From Halobacteriales archaeon QS_1_69_70 (GTDB lineage: Archaea > Halobacteriota > Halobacteria > Halobacteriales > Haloarculaceae): DNA of 64,000 nucleotides. Positions 52,000 to 64,000 of the stretch are shown here, in pieces. The position numbers and the translations under genes are program-made. Numbering within the stretch: position 1 is the first letter of the stretch; each line of letters starts with the position of its first letter. The stretch covers positions 1,980 through 65,979 of the forward strand of contig PXRI01000017.1 in NCBI GenBank assembly GCA_003021005.1, written 5' to 3'. The notes beneath the pieces are model-generated. The model saw only the letters and a program-made list of their open reading frames with translations. It was not told the origin of the DNA and did not search any database.

Positions 52000-52371
52000 G
52001 TGTCGGTAGGGAGCTTCGAACTGCGGCAGGTCGAATGGTCGCCGCCGAAGGCAATCACCGTCGCGGCGGCGCTTCTGTCTGCCGGCATCCACCTGGCCAT
52101 CGCGACCACGTCGGGGAACGACGCCTTCGCCGCTCTCGGCCTCGGAATCTTGCTCGGCTTCGTGGTCTTTTTCACCGACCTCTGGGCGCCGGTCCTCTAC
52201 CTGGTCGGCGCCGTCTACGTCGGCGCGACGACCGTCTTCTGGCTGGTGGCGGGCCTCCCACAGCCGGTCCTCGGCGGCCTAGACAAGGCTGTCCAGGCAG
52301 TTCTCATCGTGTCGCTCGTGTACCTCATGGTCGTGGAGATGCGGGAGGGCGCGGCGGTGTCGGAGGACTGA
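52000..52371 (+). CDS. Four-helix membrane protein (DUF7475-like)
   Basis: 123 residues from a GTG. About four hydrophobic segments: AITVAAALLSAGIHLAIA, ALGLGILLGFVVFF, PVLYLVGAVYVGATTVFWLVAG and AVQAVLIVSLVYLMVVEM. A GTTTTTACGGG element 25-30 nt before the GTG at 52000 favours that start over a GTG at 51964. The family name is from memory; the function is unknown. This is the last gene of the GC-rich core before the accessory region. Confidence 0.65.
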   Translation: MSVGSFELRQVEWSPPKAITVAAALLSAGIHLAIATTSGNDAFAALGLGILLGFVVFFTDLWAPVLYLVGAVYVGATTVFWLVAGLPQPVLGGLDKAVQAVLIVSLVYLMVVEMREGAAVSED

Positions 52372-52530
52372 ACGTGGCGGGCGGCGGTCCGGGGACGCGA
52401 GTTGAGAATGAGGATGGTATCCGTCGCCAGAATTCGCTAGCCCGTGAAATCTCTCGCCTGTATTGGGAGCAAGACACCCGAGTCATTTTGGTCAATCATA
52501 ATGACCACGGTCAACAATACTGTCCAAGAT

Positions 52531-52692
52531 TTACATAGTGTGGGAGGAACTGGAATCACTCCTCCAACCCATATCCGGCTTATCTCGCCTGTTCGCGTCA
52601 TTTCCATGGGCCGCGACGATATCTTTGGCCTGCTCGAGGAGTCGCTGTCGCTCGTCGGTCATCCGGATCGTCGTCCGCTTGGTCGAACCCAT
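52531..52692 (-). pseudogene. Truncated ribbon-helix-helix protein (DUF7386-like)
   Basis: 53 residues from ATG 52692: MGSTKRTTIRMTDERQRLL, then EQAKDIVAAHGNDA, the N-terminus of a haloarchaeal RHH protein. Full-length relatives continue with a second helix and are about twice as long. Here the frame degenerates into Ser-rich sequence and stops. CTACATAAGG about 25 nt upstream is a good leaderless promoter. It marks the edge of the accessory region. Confidence 0.55.
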
Positions 52693-52699
52693 CGTACCC

Positions 52700-53471
52700 A
52701 ACCTTATGTAGCCAAGCTCCTAGAGTGTTTTCCCGGCCTCTACGGTTAGCCATGGCCGGCGGGTAGCGATAATCGCCCTTTTGGGGCCTACCAGGCCGAC
52801 CTATGGTATTGAATGAACGATTACGACAGGCCGGCCATTCCCCCGCCGCATCGATCCTTGTTGCCGGCCATAGTGGCCGGGTTACACGACCCGTCACCGA
52901 TTTCACCCACTGAGTGAAACCAGCGTTATCCAGGGTTGAACTGTAAAACGGGATTCGCGTTTTTAATCAAAATATGTACCCCGACGGAAATTCGTTCTCC
53001 TCGGTTATCAATAGCTCTCTATGGCAAAAATGCTGCATGAGACCCACTGGATTGCTGGGTCCGCCCCCGGCCATTCCTACTGAAATCTATGGACATCCCC
53101 GGGTCGTCCGACCCCTGGAATGTGCATAGAATCAGGATGGTGATTACATCGACACCAAACCCCGGGGGTGTCCCCATCAACGAACTGAGATAGTGTCGAG
53201 TACGAGAACCTGCTCGACGATTAGGTCAATCCGTCGGGCAAGCAGCTCCACTGCAAAGCGACCTCGAGAATGGTTGAGAGTGTCAGCTACAAAGCTCCTA
53301 GCTCGCGTATATCTTCCCGTTCTTCGACGACGATGCCTAACCCCGCTCGCTTGGCGTTCGAGCTAAGCATCGCCTTCAGGTGCGGCTCGGAGTTCATCCC
53401 GGTAGGTACCTCTGCGAGTTTCGGGAGTATAGGGGAAATTTGATAGCGGGTCCGTTCAAGAAGTGCCCCAC
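52700..53471. other. Gene-poor boundary region with remnants
   Basis: AT-richer, with palindromic words (GGCCGGC, GGCCATAGTGGCC) and many stops in all frames. On the minus strand a 63-codon open frame ending at 53287 (LAEVPTGMNSEPHLKAMLSS and on) looks like the C-terminus of a lost gene; I do not recognise it. The upstream promoter of the nuclease gene probably lies at about 53425-53450. Confidence 0.45.
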
Positions 53472-55214
53472 ATGCCAATACTGGCGTTTCTCTCGCTCCA
53501 AGAGAAAAGCGATTCCTTCCCTCCAGTCACCAATTACGGGTTTGAGTCTGGTTTTTTCAGCGAGATTGATGAGCTATTTCGTCAGATGAGCTTACATGAC
53601 GAAGAGCTTGATAGGCAAGATACCGATCGTATCAAGGCGAAACTTCTCCGAACCGGTCCCTGCCCTGGAAATGCTCGTGTCTATCATCAGTTCGTATCTG
53701 ATCCCGAGATAGAGGGAGGGAATGAGCAAATTGAGAAACTCCTTGGAAGATCTGTGAATCTGTCACGAAGGGATGCAGGCCAAGCACTTGAGGATTGGGT
53801 GGATGAGGCAAATGAATCTCTGAATGAATGGTTAGAGACGAGGGACTCCCAAGCATTAGAAGAGATGGATATCCCGGAAAAACTACGGGAACATTACCTT
53901 AATCGACTTGACCAAATTGAGGAGAAAGCAGAAGAGTTGGATATCGAGAAGAGTCAATTGAAAATCGACGTCCAGCACGAAATATTCACTCGCTACTTTC
54001 ATGCAGCTGAACCTGATGGGGCCTGGATACCAGATGAAATCCCTGGTGGCGTGTTTGAATCCAAATTAAGTCTTCCTCCAGAGCCAGTTGATAGACATGA
54101 ATTAGCGGGGTACGCAGTCCATATAGAACGCGCACAGGATTTACCTGTGGATTTTGGCGTGTACTTGTATTTAGACGACGATATGAACGAAATTGAGCTA
54201 AAAGAAATATATATAGACGATGTTCTCCGTGAAAGAATCAAGGAGAATATAGAGATTTTTTCGGCCTTAGCATTTGACAGTATATCTGAAGAGGCGTGGG
54301 ATGAATCGATTCCATTAAGCAGACGACTTCTTGAACCACATGAACCAAAGTATAATCGAGCATGCCGGAACTGTGCCTACACACGATCCTGTCACGAGGG
54401 TGGGAAGTATTTCGATCTACGGGATGACACATACCAAGACATATCAAATCTGAAGCTTAGTGGTACTCACCTGGAACCTATACTTGAGGCTATTTTTGAT
54501 GCGCAGCCCCACCGAGATGATGTCGCCGACAGAGTGATGGAGAACTTCCCCGGGAAATCGCGAAAGAGCGTGTTCCGGGGTATGGTAATCCCGACCCTGA
54601 AGAGACTCCAATTAATCCGGATCAAAGCAGACGCGTCCCGCATCATGGTATCACCGAATGGGAAGATGATTTTTGAATACAGTTCAACACATGAAGGACT
54701 GAAACAGTGTGTACGAGATTATACTGTATCTGAGCTTAACTTTAGTCGTAACGCAGTTGATTACTTCCGAGAAAACGCATCTCTCCTCTCCGAAGGAACT
54801 CATGAAAACTTCGAAGAGAACATAGGTCGGTTCTATAATCAGTATCTGGATTATTTTGATATTAGACTGCCAGAAGAAGATGATGCAGAGGAGCTCGTAG
54901 ATGCGGTATACCGGGGTGAGAGTGCCGAACCCTACCTTACCAATCGAGAATTAAGAAGGGAGTGGCTGCTAGGTGCTCTCCCACACCATGAAATGACACA
55001 GTTTGACCGTGGAAGGTGGAGGCTTCTAAAATGGCTTTTGGACCATGATGTTCTAGCCACCACTTGGTTGGTTGATACTGCCCTTTGGCGTGAATGGCGG
55101 AGTGAAGGACGGGTAATTGATTTATGGGAGGGGTCCACTCATTCAGATGCTAGACTATCCAGAAACGGTTCTACATATGATGCAATTATTGTAGAGAGAA
55201 ACAATGACAGATGA
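53472..55214 (+). CDS. Cas4-like PD-(D/E)XK nuclease with Fe-S cysteines and C-terminal extension
   Basis: 580 residues. The nuclease core covers about 55-310: Cys64 (TGPCPGNARV), an acid in IPDEIPGG (about 186-193), E196-x-K198 in GVFESKLSL, the helix HELAGYAVHIER (Q/H-x4-Y type motif) and CRNCAYTRSC (Cys298, 301, 307). Four Cys in Cas4/AddB-like spacing suggest a [4Fe-4S] cluster. The C-terminal half (about 330-580) includes a winged-helix-like part (SRKSVFRGMVIPTLKRLQLI) and is unknown. ATG 53472 is preferred to GTG 53463. It overlaps the ATPase gene by 11 nt. Codon use is AT-rich compared with the core. Probable nucleic acid end-processing or restriction. Confidence 0.78.
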   Translation: MPILAFLSLQEKSDSFPPVTNYGFESGFFSEIDELFRQMSLHDEELDRQDTDRIKAKLLRTGPCPGNARVYHQFVSDPEIEGGNEQIEKLLGRSVNLSRRDAGQALEDWVDEANESLNEWLETRDSQALEEMDIPEKLREHYLNRLDQIEEKAEELDIEKSQLKIDVQHEIFTRYFHAAEPDGAWIPDEIPGGVFESKLSLPPEPVDRHELAGYAVHIERAQDLPVDFGVYLYLDDDMNEIELKEIYIDDVLRERIKENIEIFSALAFDSISEEAWDESIPLSRRLLEPHEPKYNRACRNCAYTRSCHEGGKYFDLRDDTYQDISNLKLSGTHLEPILEAIFDAQPHRDDVADRVMENFPGKSRKSVFRGMVIPTLKRLQLIRIKADASRIMVSPNGKMIFEYSSTHEGLKQCVRDYTVSELNFSRNAVDYFRENASLLSEGTHENFEENIGRFYNQYLDYFDIRLPEEDDAEELVDAVYRGESAEPYLTNRELRREWLLGALPHHEMTQFDRGRWRLLKWLLDHDVLATTWLVDTALWREWRSEGRVIDLWEGSTHSDARLSRNGSTYDAIIVERNNDR

Positions 55215-56298
55215 AAAAGTAAGAAACCTGTTGCAGACAGCACCGTTCAATCTCGGTGGCGGGCTTAATCTCGAAACAGGTCGGGAAACGTTCGTGCCGC
55301 TCGAGATGCATAAACAATTCCGCAACAGGGTCATTCAGAACCGGGCACGCGGAGTTTCGATATGGCCGTTGGCAGGACCGGTTGGTATTGGAAGGACCTG
55401 GACGCTGGCTTGGACGGGGAGACAGGCAATTGATAAAGACATGGAGAAAGCGGATGAAAGGTGGGAAGCAGCCCTAGTTCCTGGCCTCGGAGAGGGGAAA
55501 GTACGCGATCTCTACGAGTCCATTTTTGCGTCTACAGAATACCTAAGAGAGGAAGCGAAGAAGGAGCTGCCGGAGAATCAAGACAACGTCTCCGGCCAAG
55601 GGAGAGAAGGAATTCTGAATCACGCGCTCCTTGATGATTCCAGTTGGGCAGTCCTAACTGGAGATAAAGGGCGTTTCCCGACAATAGAGGGGGTTGATCA
55701 GAAGCCGAAATGGACTCGAAGGCAGACGCAGGTTGAATTCTTAGTTGAATGGTTGAGGAGGCTCCATGAAGTTGGTGTTGACAACTTTATCATCCTGATT
55801 GACGAATTCGAAACGACGGTCACTCGTCTTAGTTCTAACAAGATGACTGATTTTAGTGATGGTCTACGTAGGCTATACGATGTGGTTGAAGAAAATCAAG
55901 AAGATATGCCGAATTTGGAGGTTATCCTGAGCGCCACTACGCAAGCTGCTACGAAGATTGATCCATCAGCATCCTCTGAAGACTTACCGGGTTGGCTAAC
56001 GGCTCTACAGTCCCGCATGGACCGAGGATTCGTACTAACCAAGATAGACGAAGAGGAGGCAATGGAAATTGCAGCTAAGTGTATTGACTACAGGCGCACA
56101 GAAGACGCTGAAACGGCTATTCATCCATATACAGAAGAAGCGATCTCGACAGCGTACCGCGCCTCAGACGGCCTCCCTCGAAGGCTCAGCGAGATTCTGA
56201 ACGAAATGTACATAATCTCGTATGATGATACTTTGATTACCGAAGAAGATGCGGAAGAAGCGATTGAGATTCTCGGATACGATTTGAGGCCTGCCTGA
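55204..56298 (+). CDS. AAA-type ATPase partner of the Cas4-like nuclease
   Basis: 364 residues. The P-loop GPVGIGRT (58-65) has Arg in place of the usual Lys; Walker B is FIILIDEFET (about 200), with a sensor-1-like VILSATTQ and an Orc/Cdc6-like C-terminal region (GLPRRLSEILNEMY). The fold resembles ORC/STAND-like AAA+ proteins. A K-to-R P-loop often weakens hydrolysis, so it may bind nucleotide as a switch. The 11-nt overlap with the nuclease gene implies coupled translation. The two probably act together; the target is unknown. Confidence 0.75.
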   Translation: MTDEKVRNLLQTAPFNLGGGLNLETGRETFVPLEMHKQFRNRVIQNRARGVSIWPLAGPVGIGRTWTLAWTGRQAIDKDMEKADERWEAALVPGLGEGKVRDLYESIFASTEYLREEAKKELPENQDNVSGQGREGILNHALLDDSSWAVLTGDKGRFPTIEGVDQKPKWTRRQTQVEFLVEWLRRLHEVGVDNFIILIDEFETTVTRLSSNKMTDFSDGLRRLYDVVEENQEDMPNLEVILSATTQAATKIDPSASSEDLPGWLTALQSRMDRGFVLTKIDEEEAMEIAAKCIDYRRTEDAETAIHPYTEEAISTAYRASDGLPRRLSEILNEMYIISYDDTLITEEDAEEAIEILGYDLRPA

Positions 56299-56335
56299 CA
56301 CATAAGATAATATAAATTATAATTAACTCGGTTCT

Positions 56336-56770
56336 ATGGCTATCGCCTGTCAAAAACCGGTAGCTTTGCAACTCCTCGACAGGCGTTCGTTAGTGAAGTG
56401 TCTAATTCGGTCGCTGGAAATTATAATAATAGCCGAAGGCGGCGAGCTAGTGGTAGGCGCTGGCGCAGTCGGCATCCGTTTGATGAAAACTGTCGATCCG
56501 CATAGCGAGCGTCTGGAACCACTTTTCGAGCAGATTCCGATCGACGTAGTCGACGTGACCGGTTAAATCGCATCGCGCGAGAGTGGTCAGGTAGCCCATC
56601 CCCTCGACGAGAAATATCGTCTCAGATATACTCGGTTGCCGGATCCGTTCCGAGTCGCTCAGAAACGAATATATCTAGTAGCGGTTTCGTCTCGAGATCG
56701 ATCGCGGCATACAGCCATTGCTACTCCGTGCCAATCAGTACCGCTGTTTCCTCGACCGTGGCACGTGACG
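56336..56770 (-). pseudogene. Decayed DDE transposase (IS6-like haloarchaeal ISH)
   Basis: Read on the minus strand, fragments in shifting frames match the catalytic region of a DDE transposase: ETAVLIG, QWLYAAIDLETKPLLDIF, SERLGTDPATEY, then GHVDYVDRNLLEKWFQTLAM, RIDSFHQTD and YNFQRPN...RTPVEEL. In-frame stops and frameshifts interrupt it. The IS family is assigned from memory of similar haloarchaeal elements. It separates the two modules of the accessory region. Confidence 0.65.
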
Positions 56771-56791
56771 GCCATGCCCAAGAACGGAAAT

Positions 56792-57793
56792 TTATGGGAT
56801 TATATTTACAGAATCGTATTTGTCAGGATGTCGATTAGTGTTATACCATCCTCGACGTCTCCCTCGCTCTAAGATTCCAAGTTCGACCATCCGGCTAATA
56901 GCACCACCAGCGTTGGATCGCACATTGTTGTCGGAGGGGTCGTCCCCAATGGCAGGCGAGTCTTCCAGGAAATCACGGAACTTGTCTAGATAGTTGGTAT
57001 AGGCTCCTTCCCCCTCCTCTAGGATGTTGTAGACGTGCTTCATGAACCGATATTCCTCATCCATCTCGTTTCGGATGGTGGTGATTATGAATGCCTGCTC
57101 CTCCTCACTCAGAGTTGGAGCATCCGGACCATTCTCCAGCAGCGGATTGTCTATCTGAATAAATCTAGACCCCTTTAAGCTCAGTTGAATCTCCCAATCC
57201 ATTCCATCCTCCTGAAAGGAGACGTAACCGAGATCATGGCCGAAGCCATCGGCTTGCCCCTTCTGGGTCTGGACTTTCCCGACGTAGTGGTCCAGAAACC
57301 GTTTCATGGACTGATCTTTGTCCTTTGGGAACCCGGTGGATTTTCGGTTCTGCTTCTTTATGTCGTGGCGGTCTTCCCAGTCAACAATCGCTTCGCGGAT
57401 TGGCCAAACCTCTTCGGCGATATACTTTCTCGCTTCCTTTAGCGGGACTGCACCACCAGTATCGGCACTCAGCTCGGCGAGCTTATAGAGCGCACATTTC
57501 AACGGGAAGAACCGATAGTACTGCGAGAACAGGAGTATTCCGTCTCGGTGCTCGCCGAATGGCGGTCCTGTGGGGATCTCTTGCGGCGGGGAGTAGCTCC
57601 AATGTCTAATACCGGATTCCTCAGTTGTCGTAGACTGATTGGACTGGTCAGTGTCTTCCTGGGAACGTTCAATGGCCAGTTGATTCTGCGCAGCAACCCG
57701 CAGAAACTGTTCTACGGAGTCATACTTTTCTTCTTGTACCAGCTGCTGTACCTCCTCGTACGCGGCTGGTTCGAGTTCTGCAAACAGTCTCAT
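56792..57793 (-). CDS. Unrecognised protein, last gene of the methylase/GHKL operon
   Basis: 333 residues. The N-terminal 45 residues (MRLFAELEPAAYEEVQQLVQ, then YDSVEQFLRVAAQNQL) look like a short dimerising helix pair or degenerate RHH. The rest is mixed alpha/beta with an acidic core and a winged-helix-like end (SNAGGAISRMVELGILERGR). No catalytic motif is recognised. It begins 4 nt after the previous stop. A DNA-recognition role is possible but unproven. Confidence 0.7.
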   Translation of the reverse strand: MRLFAELEPAAYEEVQQLVQEEKYDSVEQFLRVAAQNQLAIERSQEDTDQSNQSTTTEESGIRHWSYSPPQEIPTGPPFGEHRDGILLFSQYYRFFPLKCALYKLAELSADTGGAVPLKEARKYIAEEVWPIREAIVDWEDRHDIKKQNRKSTGFPKDKDQSMKRFLDHYVGKVQTQKGQADGFGHDLGYVSFQEDGMDWEIQLSLKGSRFIQIDNPLLENGPDAPTLSEEEQAFIITTIRNEMDEEYRFMKHVYNILEEGEGAYTNYLDKFRDFLEDSPAIGDDPSDNNVRSNAGGAISRMVELGILERGRRRGWYNTNRHPDKYDSVNIIP

Positions 57794-57797
57794 GAAA

Positions 57798-58475
57798 TCA
57801 TTGTGGCTCCCTGAGTGCCATTTCTATCTCCTCATCGGCGGGGAAGTTGTGCTCTCCGAAGAGCCGGTAGATATTCTTGACGTTCTTCGGAGACGGGTTT
57901 CGCACTCGGCCAACCGCCTTCTCAGCGATCACGTCGAGGTCGGGTTCATTGATTTCCACGCGGGCATCGTCCCAAGCACGGATTTCGTTGCGGGTGAGTG
58001 AGTCCTCAGCGTCGCGGATGTGGACGTCGTATGTCTCGCGTGCTTGCTCGGGTCCCAGCTTCTGGGCGAGTTCCGAGATGGTCATCGGCGCGTCTTTTCT
58101 ATCCCACTCCTTGTCCGGAAAGACCTCATAGAATCGCTGGTAGAGGTAGCTGGCGCGGTTCTCCTTGCTGTCCACGAACGGCAGGAGTGGTGTCAGGATG
58201 TCCATATCCCGGTGTTCGTCCTCGCGGACTTGCTCCTTGTACACCTTCCCCATCTTCCAGGCGCTGTGGTATTTGTCGGCCTCCTCGTTATCGGCGTCCC
58301 ATAAGTCGAGAATAATCTCCTGGTAATCGTTGAGAAGGTCGCTCAGTTCCTGATGCTCGCTCTCCGTCAGCGTCCGCTCACCGCCCTTGTTGAGCGTCAC
58401 GAGCCGCCCAACACGCGTCTCCTTGATCTCGATAGAGTAGTTCCCTTCTTCGATTTTCGAGTGTAGATCGGCCAT
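57798..58475 (-). CDS. Unrecognised acidic protein of the methylase/GHKL operon
   Basis: 225 residues from ATG 58475. An N-terminal beta part (NYSIEIKETRVGRLVTLNKG) is followed by helices (TESEHQELSDLLNDYQEIIL, then SYLYQRFYEVFPDKEW) and a basic-hydrophobic C-terminal helix pair (SPKNVKNIYRLFGEHNFP). No known motif is present. It lies 25 nt after the GHKL gene and 4 nt before the last gene. Being small, helical and tightly linked, it could be an adaptor. Confidence 0.7.
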   Translation of the reverse strand: MADLHSKIEEGNYSIEIKETRVGRLVTLNKGGERTLTESEHQELSDLLNDYQEIILDLWDADNEEADKYHSAWKMGKVYKEQVREDEHRDMDILTPLLPFVDSKENRASYLYQRFYEVFPDKEWDRKDAPMTISELAQKLGPEQARETYDVHIRDAEDSLTRNEIRAWDDARVEINEPDLDVIAEKAVGRVRNPSPKNVKNIYRLFGEHNFPADEEIEMALREPQ

Positions 58476-58500
58476 ACAAGGGACTCGTGCCCCGCTGCTA

Positions 58501-60630
58501 TTAAGACTCATATTCAAGACCGAATTGGTCCGCGATGGACGATTCCATGAGGGCGAGCTTGCCGGCACGATCCTTCATCATCTCTTCTAGCACCTCGGCA
58601 GCTCGGTCACCGTCGACAGTTATCTCACCGAGGAGCTCGTGTATCTCGTCGATGTTGCGGTGAAGGATGACTTCCTTGACGCCCCACTCGGTCCCGAGTC
58701 GCTTCTGAATTCTGTCTCGACGGTCCTCGTCATCCTTGATGCGGGTGGCGGCGACCCACTCATCCCGATTTACGTTGATGGTAAGGTCGATTCCGCCTTC
58801 ACCGTGTTCGGTAGCTACGGCTTTCCAGCTCTCATCTTCACCGGGATAGAACGTGGTGTCGCGGACGATGGACATCCGCGTGGGCTCATCTCCACCACCG
58901 TCCTCGCCGTTGGCGATCTTCTGTGACTTCGGTTTGACGTCGCCGACGTAGAACGTGACCCGAGAGCTGTCGAGCTCCTCGGGGTTTTCTCCATTGAGCT
59001 CTAACACCTCGGGCTGTGCGCGAATACTCGCACGGAACGAGTAGATGCCCTCCTCCGTGGGCCGGAACTTGCTAATCGAGATGGTTCGGTGCTTATTCTC
59101 CGGCACCTCGATGACGCGTGACGGGAGCGACTGGTTCAGGCCCAGGTCGTTTGCTCCGACCTGAAGGTCGTAGACTTCGAACCGTTCATCTTCGGCGTCT
59201 TTGGGGTTCTCTATTTGAACAGCTAAAGGGACCTCCTCCCCAACGTCGAACTCGCGCTTCCCGACCTGGCACTTGAGTAGATTCTTGCTCAGTGGGGGTG
59301 GGGGCGTGTCCTCACCAGGCCCCTCGTCTTCATTACCACCGAGCTCGGTGATCTGACCGTCTTCGACCTGGTAGTCGTCGAAGTCTTCGTACTCGGCCAG
59401 CAGGTCGTTGATGGAGGACGTGATGTCTGACGCGAGCTCCTGGCGTTCCTCCGTCGTTCGGCCCTTCTTGAAGTACTCCTGGTGGAGCTCGTTCAGGACG
59501 GGCTTGATCCCACTATCCGTCTCGTTGCCGCGGAATGACGTGTGGGAGTTGTTTTCGAGATCGGGGCAGAGTTCGCTCGCGTCGCACCACCCAATCATCT
59601 CAGGTGGACTCTTGATTGAGGGGATGTTCTGTGGTTTGTACGCCTTGACTGTCATGAAGGGGTGGTCGAGATACTTGTTGCCCTTCAGCATCGCCACACC
59701 CTCCCACGGGACCTCCTTATCGTCGTCCATCACGTCCGTCCGCATCACGGAGAGATCGCGAACCTGGTATGTGCCGCCCTCGGCGGAGAACTCCGGTAGC
59801 TTCTCCTTGTAGATGAGCTGTCCTTCCTCCAGGTACTCGTCGAGCCGAGGCGCGTCTGGAGTATTACGCTCCCCGTCGATGTAGTACTCGACGGTCACAT
59901 CGTCCCTGAGCAGAAGGAACGTGAAGCTGTGCAGAAGCACCTTCTCGACTTCCTCCCAGTCGCTCAGGAATTCCATGTCGTGGTTTAGAACGCCTTCAAC
60001 GTGGATGTACGTCCCCTGGACCCCCTCAGGGAACTTCCGGTTGGTAGGCTCTTTTGGTTCACTGTATTTCCCGACGTTTGTCACCGTTGAGGAGTAGTGC
60101 TCGCCACCGTGACGGGTCTCGACGTAGGTCTTCCCTTCGCCGCACATGGAAACCACGTAGAACCCGCGTCCGTACGCGCCTGCGCCCTCGCCTGCCTCTT
60201 TGTCCTCGTCGGGCGTGTCGATACCCAGGAGATTGTCCTCCAGCGTCTCCTTGCTCATGCCCCCGGCGTTGTCCTCGTAGGTGAACATCTCCCGGGCAGT
60301 GTCCACGCGAATTTGGATTCCGAGTTCCGCGTCCTCGTCGAGGAAGCCTTCGGTCTTGTTTCGACCGAAGGCGTCACCACCGTTCTGGAGTGCCTCCCGG
60401 ATCGACCCTTTCCAGGGCTCGTCGTAGTCCTCACGGATCCGCTTCAGCGTGTTCCCCCGTTTGATGGGAACCTTCTCCGTTATCTCGTCGTCGTCCGCGA
60501 ACTCCGGGGTATCGTCGGTTTCATTGATACTTTCCACGTTCACTTCGGGCGGTTCCCGATTAGGGGTGTCGATCGGCACCTCGTCATCTATCGGGTCTTC
60601 GTCGTCGGATCGTTCGTCGTCAGTCCTCAT
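58501..60630 (-). CDS. GHKL (MORC/MutL/Hsp90-type) ATPase
   Basis: 709 residues. After an acidic N-terminus (1-50), the GHKL nucleotide fold shows IREALQNGGDAF (N-box: E79, N83, D86), YEDNAGGM (G1, D120) and GEGAGAYGRGF (G2 lid, about 148-158). An S5-like transducer region follows (to about 330), a Pro-rich linker near 450, then an Ig-like beta domain (about 460-575) and an acidic C-terminus. Such ATPases open and close as dimers around DNA or clients. GAGGTG, 9 nt before ATG 60630, decides the start over a GTG at 60642. MORC-like ATPases are known in prokaryotic restriction-modification-type operons. Confidence 0.8.
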   Translation of the reverse strand: MRTDDERSDDEDPIDDEVPIDTPNREPPEVNVESINETDDTPEFADDDEITEKVPIKRGNTLKRIREDYDEPWKGSIREALQNGGDAFGRNKTEGFLDEDAELGIQIRVDTAREMFTYEDNAGGMSKETLEDNLLGIDTPDEDKEAGEGAGAYGRGFYVVSMCGEGKTYVETRHGGEHYSSTVTNVGKYSEPKEPTNRKFPEGVQGTYIHVEGVLNHDMEFLSDWEEVEKVLLHSFTFLLLRDDVTVEYYIDGERNTPDAPRLDEYLEEGQLIYKEKLPEFSAEGGTYQVRDLSVMRTDVMDDDKEVPWEGVAMLKGNKYLDHPFMTVKAYKPQNIPSIKSPPEMIGWCDASELCPDLENNSHTSFRGNETDSGIKPVLNELHQEYFKKGRTTEERQELASDITSSINDLLAEYEDFDDYQVEDGQITELGGNEDEGPGEDTPPPPLSKNLLKCQVGKREFDVGEEVPLAVQIENPKDAEDERFEVYDLQVGANDLGLNQSLPSRVIEVPENKHRTISISKFRPTEEGIYSFRASIRAQPEVLELNGENPEELDSSRVTFYVGDVKPKSQKIANGEDGGGDEPTRMSIVRDTTFYPGEDESWKAVATEHGEGGIDLTINVNRDEWVAATRIKDDEDRRDRIQKRLGTEWGVKEVILHRNIDEIHELLGEITVDGDRAAEVLEEMMKDRAGKLALMESSIADQFGLEYES

Positions 60631-60774
60631 ATTGTGTTTCACCTCATTGTGGTAGCGCCTACGACAGCTTGTGGTTCACATACAAGCGATCCAATAGAGA
60701 TTCAAAAATGTTCGGATGGGCCCGAGTATAGTGGACAAAGGCTATCTAGCTGCTAAAATCGGGAGAATTGGCCC

Positions 60775-61077
60775 TCAGTTTAGGGCTTCTTCGACTTGTT
60801 GTGTATGATCAAGCACAAGTTCACGATGTGTATCGAGCAACTCTGCGCCTTTTGTGGTCAACATATAGCAATTCGAGCGTCCGTCTATCGGCTTTTTTTC
60901 GACAAAGTCTAGGTCGTCTAATCGTTCCAAGGCCTGGTACACGCTTTGGTATGCGATATCTGTGTCATGCCATCCCTCATATTCATCTTGAAGAGCGCTT
61001 ACATCCGGCTCATACTTATCAGCGATGAAGCACAGCAACTCCAGCTGCAGCCCACCGATGTTAGATTCGTTCATCAT
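60775..61077 (-). CDS. PadR-like winged-helix transcriptional regulator
   Basis: 100 residues. LQLELLCFIADKYEPDVSAL, YQSVYQALERLDDLDFVEKK and the wing PIDGRSNCYMLTTKGAELL match the PadR/phenolic-acid-regulator-type winged helix used widely in haloarchaea. Its ATG overlaps the methyltransferase stop, so both are cotranslated. It probably autoregulates the operon. The 144 nt to the GHKL gene may hold an internal promoter. Confidence 0.82.
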   Translation of the reverse strand: MMNESNIGGLQLELLCFIADKYEPDVSALQDEYEGWHDTDIAYQSVYQALERLDDLDFVEKKPIDGRSNCYMLTTKGAELLDTHRELVLDHTQQVEEALN

Positions 61078-62837
61078 CGTGGTTTCTGAAGGATGACGAC
61101 CCATTCACGTTCAATGACTCCGTTGCCATGATCTCTCCCGTAGAATAGGTCGCGGTTGGAAATCTTATCCCAGGCCATTCCCGCGAGCCGATATCCGGCG
61201 TCTGTTGGGATGTTTTTGTCTTGACTATTGAACTTTCCGAGATTTTGAGCGATATCAGCCACGAATTTGTGGCTCTGTATCCGGCGGCCGCTGATCGTAT
61301 TCTCGCCGATAATGAAGAAGAAATACGCATCCGGCTTTAGGTGTCGATAGACGCTCGTCAGAGTCTCTAGCATGTCCTCTGCGAAGAACTTCCACGTGAT
61401 GTAAGCACGACTCTTGGCTTCGGTTAAATCACCGTTGTGTATTTTCAGGATGTGGTCGTCCAGCTCAGGGAGCGAAGTTTTCTCGTATTCGTCCCAGGCA
61501 CCGCCCCACTGGTCGTTCATCATGAATGGGAGATCTTCCTCTATGTCGCTGATAGTAGCCGAGTTTGTCCCGATAAACGACCGTCGGAGGGTTTCGGCGT
61601 CTACATCTGTGGTTTCCTCCAGGAGGTCGTGAATCCAGAACAACCGAAGTTTCGTCCCTCTATAGTAATTTATTGCGTTGATGTACGGTGGAGACGTGAT
61701 GGCCATATCCACACCATTAAAGTAATCAGGGAATTCGAAGTCGCGAGCGTCCCCTAACTGAATATTCGAGGTAGCCTGGTGCGACTGGTTTTCCTCCAAT
61801 GGGAGCCAGTTATCCGAGAAGCTGTGTAGAGTCGACCGGGTCATCCGTTCGGTGGTCAACGTTTGACTGGCGCCACCTGGAACGTTTGTACGATAAACCT
61901 CATTCCACAGGTCAATGAGTTTCCCAACCGACCGATCGAGATGTTCCTGGTACCGCTCAATCGCATTCGGTGGGTGCTCCCCGTTTTCGATACGCTCCCT
62001 CATCTTCTTCGATTTGTGGGCCTTCGAAACCTTCGGATCCGCGTTTGAAACATCGAAGACCGTATTCGCTATCAAGAGGATGAGCCATTTCGGTACAGCC
62101 GTTTTGAGAAGTTTCTCCGAATTCAGATCGGCCACCACTTTCCGTTCCCGTGGTTCAATTCCGGCCATCAAACCCACTTCGTCATCGATAAATTCGATTA
62201 CTACCTTCCGAATTGTTGTCAGCCCCTCGATTGCTGAATCCTCGAACCAGTGGTGCTTGTCGGTCTCATCCAGAAATTCCACGTCGTGCTCCTCATAGTA
62301 TTTTGTCTCAGTCGCTTCCAGCCCTTGAAGTATTTCATATTTGGTGTTACGAAGAACAGTGTACGGGATTGGGGTGGTTGCGGCATCGGTAACCAACTTT
62401 GAAACGGGATTTATTTCTACTCCGAGGAAGTCGCGCCCCGCTACCTTTGACACTACGCCTGTTGTGCCGCTCCCACAAAAGGGATCGAGGATGACTGGGC
62501 GGTCCCCGTCCTCGTTTCTTTCCGACGAAAATGTGTTGATAAGGTACCGTGGGATGTGGGGTATGAATATCGCAGGGTGCTTGTGAATGCCATGAGTCAA
62601 GGGAGCTGTATCCGACCACGAGATCGTGTCCGCCAGCCGGCGGAAGTTCATCTCTGGATACTCGTTCAACTCTTGGTTCGAATTTGTATCTGAGAGCAGA
62701 TATCGGGGAGCCGCGATGCGCTCGTCCATCGCGGGATTGTCCTCAATTCGAAAGTCAATATCTGCAGCATTCTTACTCGGGTTTTCTTCCGCACCAGATT
62801 GTGGAGAAATATCCTGTGTAGATTCGCCGCTACCCAT
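61074..62837 (-). CDS. Amino-DNA methyltransferase, alpha class (N4-C or N6-A)
   Basis: 587 residues. The AdoMet motif DPFCGSGTTGVVS is near residue 120, and the catalytic TSPPYINAINYYRG is near 395, about 270 residues later; that order with a recognition region between is the alpha class. A TSPPY sequence occurs in both N4-cytosine and N6-adenine enzymes. FFFIIGEN and VVILQKP follow in the C-terminal fold. It is the first gene of a leftward operon. No restriction subunit with helicase motifs is adjacent. It would mark host DNA. Confidence 0.85.
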   Translation of the reverse strand: MGSGESTQDISPQSGAEENPSKNAADIDFRIEDNPAMDERIAAPRYLLSDTNSNQELNEYPEMNFRRLADTISWSDTAPLTHGIHKHPAIFIPHIPRYLINTFSSERNEDGDRPVILDPFCGSGTTGVVSKVAGRDFLGVEINPVSKLVTDAATTPIPYTVLRNTKYEILQGLEATETKYYEEHDVEFLDETDKHHWFEDSAIEGLTTIRKVVIEFIDDEVGLMAGIEPRERKVVADLNSEKLLKTAVPKWLILLIANTVFDVSNADPKVSKAHKSKKMRERIENGEHPPNAIERYQEHLDRSVGKLIDLWNEVYRTNVPGGASQTLTTERMTRSTLHSFSDNWLPLEENQSHQATSNIQLGDARDFEFPDYFNGVDMAITSPPYINAINYYRGTKLRLFWIHDLLEETTDVDAETLRRSFIGTNSATISDIEEDLPFMMNDQWGGAWDEYEKTSLPELDDHILKIHNGDLTEAKSRAYITWKFFAEDMLETLTSVYRHLKPDAYFFFIIGENTISGRRIQSHKFVADIAQNLGKFNSQDKNIPTDAGYRLAGMAWDKISNRDLFYGRDHGNGVIEREWVVILQKPR

Positions 62838-63188
62838 CTTATCTGTCCCCTTTACCTGAGTTTATTATAAAAGTGGCTACTGGCCAATTTGGGATGCTGC
62901 GAACTATTCCCTCCGGTAGGTTGGTTAATATCGTGCACATTTGTATCTAAACTCTCTAATATCGATTCAATACTTTACCGATATCTGTTTTGTATTAGTA
63001 CTGTTATACTTATTCCATCAAAGGGCATCCAATTCGCTGTTTGAGTTCTCCATTGCCAGAGAGAAACATTGCTTCGTTACCAGTCCTATCCGGCGAAGAG
63101 AAAACGGCGATCGATAATCAGAATGCTGAATCATCTTGACAGCCGTCTTATATTCCACCACTTCATTTACGTATGCACTTCGTTCCAT
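62838..63188. other. AT-rich intergenic region
   Basis: It contains the promoter region of the methyltransferase operon (TTATTATAAAAGTGG near 62862-62876 on the plus strand reads as a TATA-like element on the minus strand) and further AT-rich tracts. Several short open frames occur (63069-63437 plus strand overlaps the next gene) but none is convincing. Confidence 0.4.
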
Positions 63189-63512
63189 CTAAATAATATC
63201 TTCAGCAACGGCTCGAGCGTCTTCTCTGGACCATTCAATATCCGGCTGACCGGTTCCATCGAAATAAATACTTCCAACATATCCTGTTTCGACACTCTCA
63301 GTATTAAACCGCGAGACGAGATCTGTGATATAATGATTAGCTTGTATTTCCAGTTCAGTCATTCCTCGAAAGCCGCTTGGCGCAGCCTTATCCGAATATG
63401 TGAGTATTTTACCCTGTCTTGTATCTTTTACCTCTAACCGGATTTCACCTTCCAAGAACCCATCGCATCCACTACTGGCCACCAAGTGGGTCACGCTCAC
63501 GTTACTATCCAC
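63189..63512 (-). CDS. Small unrecognised protein
   Basis: 107 residues from a GTG at 63512 (the nearby ATG is out of frame). It has a beta-rich sequence (GEIRLEVKDTRQGKILTYSD) and an acidic C-terminus (FDGTGQPDIEWSREDARAVA). No motif is recognised. It is transcribed toward the methyltransferase operon across the AT-rich gap and could be the operon's upstream member. Confidence 0.5.
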   Translation of the reverse strand: MDSNVSVTHLVASSGCDGFLEGEIRLEVKDTRQGKILTYSDKAAPSGFRGMTELEIQANHYITDLVSRFNTESVETGYVGSIYFDGTGQPDIEWSREDARAVAEDII

Positions 63513-63576
63513 ATGGCTAATAACTTAGTTCTTTCCCAAGTGGCCAAGAATATCTCGCTTCATAGACAATAATAAT

Positions 63577-63846
63577 ATGAATAGGGTCGGGTCATACGAT
63601 GTGCCTCGGCCACCCGAACCGCCACTCCCGGAAGAAGTCCTCGACCAAATGGTCGAAAACCGTTGCTACGTTGTGGCCGATCTCGTAGTTGAGTTTGAGG
63701 ACCAATATAATCCGGCCAGGGGAACTATACGAAACCGTCTAGAGTCCCTCGTTGAAGAGGGCTATGTAGAACGACGAAAACATGCCAATACTCGGGTGAC
63801 CTATCGACGTGTGGTGAGCGACGAAAGTTCCCCGTCTTGTAGGTAG
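63577..63846 (+). CDS. Small winged-helix DNA-binding protein
   Basis: 89 residues. A Pro-rich start (YDVPRPPEPPLPEEVLDQM), then MVENRCYVVADLVVEFED and ARGTIRNRLESLVEEGYVER and a wing RKHANTRVTYRR, a typical haloarchaeal winged helix, often found as phage or mobile-element regulators. It diverges from the gene ending at 63512 and could control both. AATAATAATATG covers the start region. Confidence 0.75.
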   Translation: MNRVGSYDVPRPPEPPLPEEVLDQMVENRCYVVADLVVEFEDQYNPARGTIRNRLESLVEEGYVERRKHANTRVTYRRVVSDESSPSCR

Positions 63847-64000
63847 GCCCCTCTATTTCTTATGCGAAATTCCCATCCCGCTGCGGTATATTTTGATATT
63901 GTGCCCTTAGGCACACCTCTAAGAGGGAATATGACCCATCCGGTCGATTCTGTCTCAGAGGATAGACAGGGACGGCAAGCAGATATCTAACCGCGGACAA

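Follow-up and report, generated by a model that had tools for sequence, protein, structure and literature searches.

Which genes of a low-G+C island in the genome of Halobacteriales archaeon QS_1_69_70 belong together, and what kind of system do they form? The window, i.e. the whole stretch of DNA analyzed here, comprises 64,000 nucleotides of contig PXRI01000017.1 (assembly GCA_003021005.1). The source genome is a draft, 82% complete, and relatives were sought in up to 391 genomes of the class. An initial annotation had proposed a restriction-modification-like island at 53472..63846, with two lower-G+C gene groups, a Cas4-like nuclease and an AAA ATPase directed rightward and five genes directed leftward, and a dead transposase between them. 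All seven frames are indeed open at the predicted positions, and the G+C content is 0.45-0.58 over 53-64 kb vs. mostly 0.60-0.77 for the first 52 kb. The division into a nuclease/ATPase module and a methyltransferase/GHKL module has to be redrawn: wherever the Cas4-like and AAA genes recur, the methyltransferase gene is beside them, and the GHKL ATPase, together with a neighbor termed U256, recurs beside other methyltransferases. Our verdict is that the island is a rare restriction-modification variant joined to a known kind of accessory.

Co-occurrence of the Nuclease, ATPase, and Methyltransferase Genes

The Cas4-like (Csa1-type) PD-(D/E)XK nuclease (583 aa; 53463..55214, plus strand) is encoded by a gene that overlaps by 11 bases that of an AAA+ ATPase (364 aa; 55204..56298, plus strand), and a DNA amino-methyltransferase is encoded at 61074..62837 on the minus strand. 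The Cas4-like protein was found in three of the 391 genomes (the window's, G035, and G306) and the AAA protein in the same three, neither gene occurring alone in any. The recurrence of the two rightward genes that had been proposed as a check was thus seen, with the methyltransferase beside them in both other genomes, so that all three Cas4-like loci have one; the five leftward genes were found together in no other locus examined. In G306 the three genes are consecutive and co-directional, and in G035 the methyltransferase gene is next to the Cas4-like/AAA pair and divergent from it. Identities to the window proteins in these two genomes are 51-52% (Cas4-like), 66-69% (AAA), and 51-53% (methyltransferase, over 565-571 aa), and the flanks of the three loci are unrelated by blastn. 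That three genes have stayed together in three arrangements, each amid unrelated DNA, is the chief argument for the trio as one restriction-modification-like unit, a reading to which we give a probability of roughly 0.6.

When the Cas4-like profile was run against 146 genomes of the family, it recovered the window, G306, and a weak fragment in G422 (E 3.6e-4). The methyltransferase matched 16 of 272 genomes at 1e-10 (G306 was outside this sample); full-length relatives are those of the window, G035 (in two pieces), and G152, and the matches in the remaining 13 genomes, including G067, are partial, as is that at a second place in G152. The Cas4-like and AAA queries found no relative in the plasmids or viral contigs searched. 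The methyltransferase had matches of 23% identity only among plasmids and phages, and no relative among viral contigs; a weak relative (23%) is present in Haloarcula virus HJTV-2, where one record names an N4-cytosine methyltransferase.

The methyltransferase matches PF01555 (8e-17) and contains DPFCGSGTT, followed by TSPPY about 260 residues away; DPF, GSGT, and TSPPY are intact and invariant in all three trio members. TSPPY is common in N4-cytosine enzymes. The assignment of the nuclease stands at the border of detection. It matches PF06023 with E 3.8e-6, its 26.9 bits falling just short of the cut-off of 27 (the genome search gave 27.9 bits), TIGR01896 with 5.7e-7, far under the cut-off of that model, and Cas4a of PADLOC with 1.5e-7; all these matches to Cas4-family hidden Markov models (HMMs) cover a short extent of about 50 residues, and the C-terminal ~260 aa have zero matches. 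Members of the Cas4 family combine four cysteines with a PD-(D/E)XK core in a set order. Four cysteines (C67, C301, C304, and C310), D185, and E199-x-K201 are invariant in all three proteins, as are D169, H172, H180, and Y217. No cas1 or cas2 was found beside the gene among the island proteins scanned.

The AAA protein is weakly BrxD/ORC-like, with Pfam matches to BrxC/D (0.0037) and AAA (0.0083), and a PDB profile search with it returned nothing useful. Its Walker A motif is GPVGIGRT (window 55375-55398), with Arg at the usual place of Lys in all three members. The Walker B DE, R271, R326, and R327 are likewise invariant in the three.

Limits of the Island and the tRNA-Thr Site

In three genomes of the same genus (G252, G288, and G352) the match to the left flank ends between 51.9 and 52.36 kb and restarts at 65998-65999, the start of tRNA-Thr(GGT) on the minus strand. 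Since synteny with these genomes breaks and resumes there, the island appears to span ~52.4-66.0 kb, with one end at the tRNA-Thr gene, 2 kb past the window end; the part inside the window is 52358..64000, continuing to ~65998. The island proposed earlier is real, but its limits were drawn too narrowly. G099, a fourth genome, matches over the left flank and one short distant piece only. No clear gene is present at 52.4-53.4 kb. Near the tRNA end, a 170-aa frame on the minus strand (64941-65453 on the window scale; L009:2920-3432) matches only the middle of DUF7845 (1.5e-56) and looks like a truncated remnant. No tRNA repeat of at least 12 bases, as an attachment-site duplicate would give, was found between 50.0 and 66.0 kb; no integrase was identified in the island, where only two frames were scanned between 64 and 66 kb; and the flank DNA gave zero matches to plasmids.

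The same gap measures ~5.4-5.5 kb in G252 and G288 and only ~1.7 kb in G352. In G252 and G288 it is filled by homologous type IV pilus genes (T2SSE, T2SSF, and pilin-like; L086:3349-8759 and L087:2829-8139) next to the same tRNA-Thr(GGT) (L009:3978-4049 in the window genome), and these genes were not found in the window-genome DNA read at this site. To call the site a hotspot for foreign cargo would be too strong. The pilus genes are homologous and may be old residents, so we call the site variable and regard a hotspot as unproven. By this comparison the tRNA-Thr site varies between genomes, and two families appear to carry the methyltransferase there.

The second family is represented by G152, in which a methyltransferase 51% identical to that of the window over 589 aa is encoded ~2.8 kb from the same tRNA-Thr. 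The DNA to the right of the tRNA gene is common to both genomes, which indicates that the two methyltransferase loci occupy the same chromosomal place in two families. Between the methyltransferase and the tRNA gene, G152 encodes a winged-helix protein of 94 aa, divergently oriented, and a protein of 642 aa (L075:12056-13984, plus strand); within the 20 kb read, neither a Cas4-like nor an AAA gene is present. The 642-aa protein had zero Pfam or PADLOC matches; it showed no similarity to the Cas4-like profile, and when the window island was searched for traces of it, the best E was 2.0. From its position it might be guessed to be an alternative restriction partner and possibly a new restriction enzyme. 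Gene calls in relatives followed a home-made longest-ORF/acidity rule, under which small neighbors may be wrong.

A GHKL ATPase and U256 as a Separate Recurring Unit

The GHKL ATPase (58501..60642, minus strand) contains ExxQNxxDA, DNAGGM, and GAYGRG, followed by ExxxH at residues 363-367, and matches PF13589 (1.5e-5; 25.4 bits against a cut-off of 25). E83, Q86-N87, D90, DNAGG, and GRG are invariant in the seven aligned proteins. ExxxH is at the same aligned place in all eight members of the clade vs. none of five more distant GHKL proteins, and the closest solved relatives by profile are Hsp90-type GHKL domains. On the N-terminal GHKL motifs and the ExxxH signature, the protein is classified as paraMORC2-like. 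An earlier remark on MORC/MutL-type ATPases was thus right in kind, and can be narrowed to a protein with ExxxH, the signature reported for paraMORC2 in 2008.

Relatives of this ATPase occur in seven of the 391 genomes, including the window's, and an eighth is on a plasmid of Salinibaculum KK48; besides these haloarchaeal loci there are two weak bacterial matches, and no relative was found among phages and viral contigs. U256 (57798..58475, minus strand) is its neighbor in all eight loci. The listed frame of U256 begins at 58568, and a start at 58475 suits its relatives better in start codons and alignment. No family reaches its cut-off with U256, and a PDB profile search was fruitless.

The surroundings of the GHKL-U256 pair are rich in restriction-modification genes of differing kinds. 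It is accompanied by U333, a methyltransferase, and an MvaI/BcnI endonuclease in G067; by a TFIIB-like protein and an XhoI endonuclease beside an Eco57I-type methylase in Ods02; by a TFIIB-like protein and a methyltransferase in G093; by a methyltransferase in G109; by a methyltransferase, a 200-aa protein, and a deaminase-like protein in G007; and, as annotated, by a methyltransferase and hypothetical proteins in Salarchaeum. An N6/N4 methyltransferase motif lies within 5 kb of the GHKL gene in six of the eight loci, and a DNA methyltransferase is near in seven once the Eco57I-type methylase of Ods02 is counted. In the control, a small one of 155 kb drawn only from the window genome and from four loci of the same genus, the motif did not occur. 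These motif scans missed C5 methyltransferases and GHKL proteins that Pfam shows, and were used for the N6/N4 counts only. None of the seven other GHKL loci has a Cas4-like or AAA match at 1e-4. Judged from these neighborhoods, GHKL-U256, sometimes with U333, is a recurring unit of its own that is lodged inside the island.

Other genes beside the pair may be recorded here. The TFIIB-repeat proteins, of ~205 aa, follow GHKL-U256 beside restriction genes (L013:14674-15303 and L011:7901-8515), and are perhaps dedicated transcription factors of those systems. The G007 protein that follows the methyltransferase and the 200-aa protein (L014:4606-5097) is cytidine-deaminase-like, with a match to PF00383 (4e-4) under the cut-off. 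On the KK48 plasmid (L023:2511-12987) the pair is near type I-D CRISPR genes.

U333, Small Regulators, and the IS6 Remnant

U333 (56792..57793, minus strand) has an RHH-like N-terminus, with a weak RHH_1 match under the cut-off, followed by two domains, and reaches no family's cut-off. In its AF2 model (mean pLDDT 79.6) both domains are helix-rich with short strands and may be read as winged-helix-like; Foldseek with this model gave nothing under E 0.001, FokI standing at rank 3 (E 0.43). Relatives of U333 occupy 12 places in 11 of the 391 genomes, and eight of the 12 have a GHKL-like neighbor. In the window, G067, G132, and contig C20 of G152 (G152-C20) these neighbors are of various kinds, that of G152-C20 matching HATPase at 0.007 only, under the cut-off. 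U333 accompanies GHKL-U256 in one other genome of the same clade, G067. At the four places in G299, G275, G267, and G146-C3 the GHKL-like neighbors match PDC-M33A of PADLOC. The remaining places (G162, G146-C2, G024, and G318) have one common gene set, which in G162, where it was scanned, includes a ResIII helicase and a protein that weakly matches NERD/CARF-nuclease families. Two or more PDC-M33-like GHKL cassettes stand within each 20 kb of L038, L040, and L044. Near the U333 place of G275 are a C5 methyltransferase and an HhH-GPD glycosylase, as is recorded also for L040.

The PadR-like/winged-helix regulator (60775..61104, minus strand), whose frame as listed shares 31 bases with the end of the methyltransferase gene, matches phrog_4278 at 2.8e-13 and PadR at 6e-4, the latter under the cut-off. 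A small winged-helix regulator (63577..63846, plus strand), divergent from the methyltransferase, matches Penicillinase_R (1.3e-4; 22.7 bits against a cut-off of 22.6). The IS6-family transposase remnant, at ~56367..56772 between the AAA and U333 genes, is the dead transposase reported earlier: its frames contain stops, and 62 plasmid records match it, with an IS6 transposase annotation in two of eight among the matches listed.

Proposed Mechanism and Alternative Explanations

Gene content, motifs, co-occurrence, and the common tRNA site are direct observations, from which we infer the target that is methylated, DNA cleavage, what each ATPase does, and any service of the GHKL module to the trio. 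The amino-methyltransferase would label self DNA at a target sequence, and DNA without this label would be cut by the Cas4-like nuclease acting with the AAA+ ATPase. The AAA+ ATPase may act as a nucleotide-dependent loader or switch of the nuclease at unmethylated sites, by analogy with LlaJI, and the C-terminal region of the nuclease is a candidate DNA reader. LlaJI has an NTP-binding subunit, which binds DNA holding the site, and a separate PD-(D/E)XK subunit, both needed in vivo (PMC1459862).

GHKL ATPases of the kind found here are ATP-gated dimers. The paraMORC2-like module is probably an ATP-gated clamp or sensor controlling restriction, and it might clamp DNA and license or restrain cutting; U333 and the PadR-like protein look like DNA-binding or regulatory parts. 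A broader proposal, offered tentatively and at odds of about one in three or a little less, is that a Cas4-type iron-sulfur nuclease and a noncanonical AAA protein form the restriction half of a new nucleotide-dependent class, that another restriction protein can take their place at one tRNA site, and that the system is governed here by a paraMORC2 GHKL module, itself a portable accessory to many restriction systems.

Several observations weigh against the one-unit reading of the trio or against this proposal. The trio is known from three loci only. Cas4-family membership of the nuclease stands right at the HMM cut-off, a PDB profile search with it gave no Cas4, and its AF2 model, built from three sequences, is unusable (pLDDT 34). 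Because the Walker A Lys is replaced by Arg in all three AAA proteins, ATP hydrolysis is doubtful. Purified LlaJI subunits gave neither cleavage nor GTPase activity (PMC1459862), so that LlaJI provides a layout, its mechanism itself being unproven. The methyltransferase of G152 occurs without the Cas4-like/AAA pair, and the 642-aa protein as a restriction enzyme is only a guess, because it matched no family. The KK48 GHKL locus shows no methyltransferase by motif. The trios of G035 and G306 have no GHKL relative within the 20 kb read, from which it follows that the trio does not need the GHKL module.

This last point leads to the best-surviving alternative, in which the trio and GHKL-U256-U333 are two independent systems stacked at one site without a functional tie. 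Trios lack the GHKL module in G035 and G306, the seven other GHKL loci lack the nuclease and ATPase at the threshold given above, the IS6 remnant marks a join, and the site beside tRNA-Thr differs between genomes. However, seven of the eight GHKL loci lie beside a methyltransferase, and here the closest is that of the trio, which lies upstream of GHKL on the same strand. We give this alternative somewhat under an even chance; it shares its core with the one-unit reading, and the two sets of odds overlap. Far less probable is that the methyltransferase serves the GHKL module as its modification enzyme, the Cas4-like and AAA proteins being a separate nuclease for repair or defense that is nearby by chance. 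The overlap of the PadR frame with the methyltransferase gene, the GHKL gene next on the same strand, and the methyltransferases of other kinds at GHKL loci would fit this arrangement, but the Cas4-like/AAA loci of G035 and G306 have this very methyltransferase adjacent and no GHKL match. A modification-dependent (type IV, McrBC-like) or abortive action on foreign modified DNA, with another role for the methyltransferase, is slightly less likely still: the AAA and PD-(D/E)XK layout resembles that of McrBC, but McrBC is described without an associated methyltransferase (PMC1459862), and here one is kept in all three loci. Least probable is a decayed or silent, functionless remnant, as the IS6 remnant, the stretch at 52.4-53.4 kb without a clear gene, the DUF7845 frame matched in its middle only, and the incomplete draft might suggest, against seven open frames with key motifs intact.

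Cas4-family nucleases are known mainly as CRISPR adaptation enzymes. If the preferred reading of the trio as one restriction-modification-like unit is true, they would extend into restriction, and haloarchaea would offer a setting for a direct test of the role of MORC-like GHKL ATPases in restriction that was proposed in 2008. Since GHKL-U256 adjoins XhoI-type and MvaI-type endonuclease genes, its effect should be measurable on well-known kinds of enzyme.

Comparison with Known Systems

PADLOC gave only single-component matches on the island (Cas4, MTase_II, weak BrxD, AriAB, and Csa3) and no complete named system, in keeping with the earlier placement of the island outside the named systems. 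BREX can be set aside, as the PglX/BrxC/PglZ set is missing and only the AAA protein has a weak BrxD-like stretch. No system of a Cas4-like protein, an AAA protein, and a methyltransferase is named in the titles and abstract openings of the open-access literature among the matches listed, and the terms GHKL and MORC do not occur in the main text of PMC12988326. The PADLOC candidate PDC-M33 is related at a distance, in that distant U333 relatives lie near PDC-M33A (GHKL) genes at four of the 12 U333 places, and the one DUF6339 protein tested matches PDC-M33C. The window GHKL and U256 have no PDC-M33 match in PADLOC; comparison of the GHKL profile with that of the PDC-M33A proteins was weak, and profile comparison found nothing for U256 as a divergent PDC-M33C or as the 320-aa protein of PDC-M33 loci.

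Solo-Cas4 proteins outside CRISPR are described beside restriction-modification genes in some DPANN archaea, and UvrD-Cas4 fusions near type III systems or Dcm (PMC5704561); compared with solo-Cas4, the protein here is larger and has its own AAA partner. The ExxxH mark of paraMORC2, a restriction-associated GHKL family described in 2008 from gene neighborhoods, is situated toward the end of the S5 domain (Iyer, Abhiman and Aravind 2008, PMC2292703). For MORC proteins, the S5-domain motif is GhXhhpXXRhl (PMC2292703). The window protein resembles this family in its GHKL motifs, the downstream ExxxH, its methyltransferase and endonuclease neighbors, and its sporadic spread; its ExxxH lies in a putative S5 domain. 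The neighborhoods stressed for paraMORC2 in that paper are those of SFII helicases, and the hosts cyanobacteria and Gram-positive bacteria (PMC2292703), whereas here the constant partner is U256 and the hosts are haloarchaea; no helicase adjoining GHKL was identified among the scanned neighbors of the eight loci. The trio itself, compared by description, is like LlaJI in layout, in that this restriction-modification system too divides NTP binding and the nuclease between two subunits. R1.LlaJI resembles McrB and has a GTP-binding domain (PMC1459862), whereas the AAA protein here shows weak similarity to BrxD/ORC and has Arg in Walker A, and, unlike in LlaJI, the nuclease is Cas4-like with four invariant cysteines.

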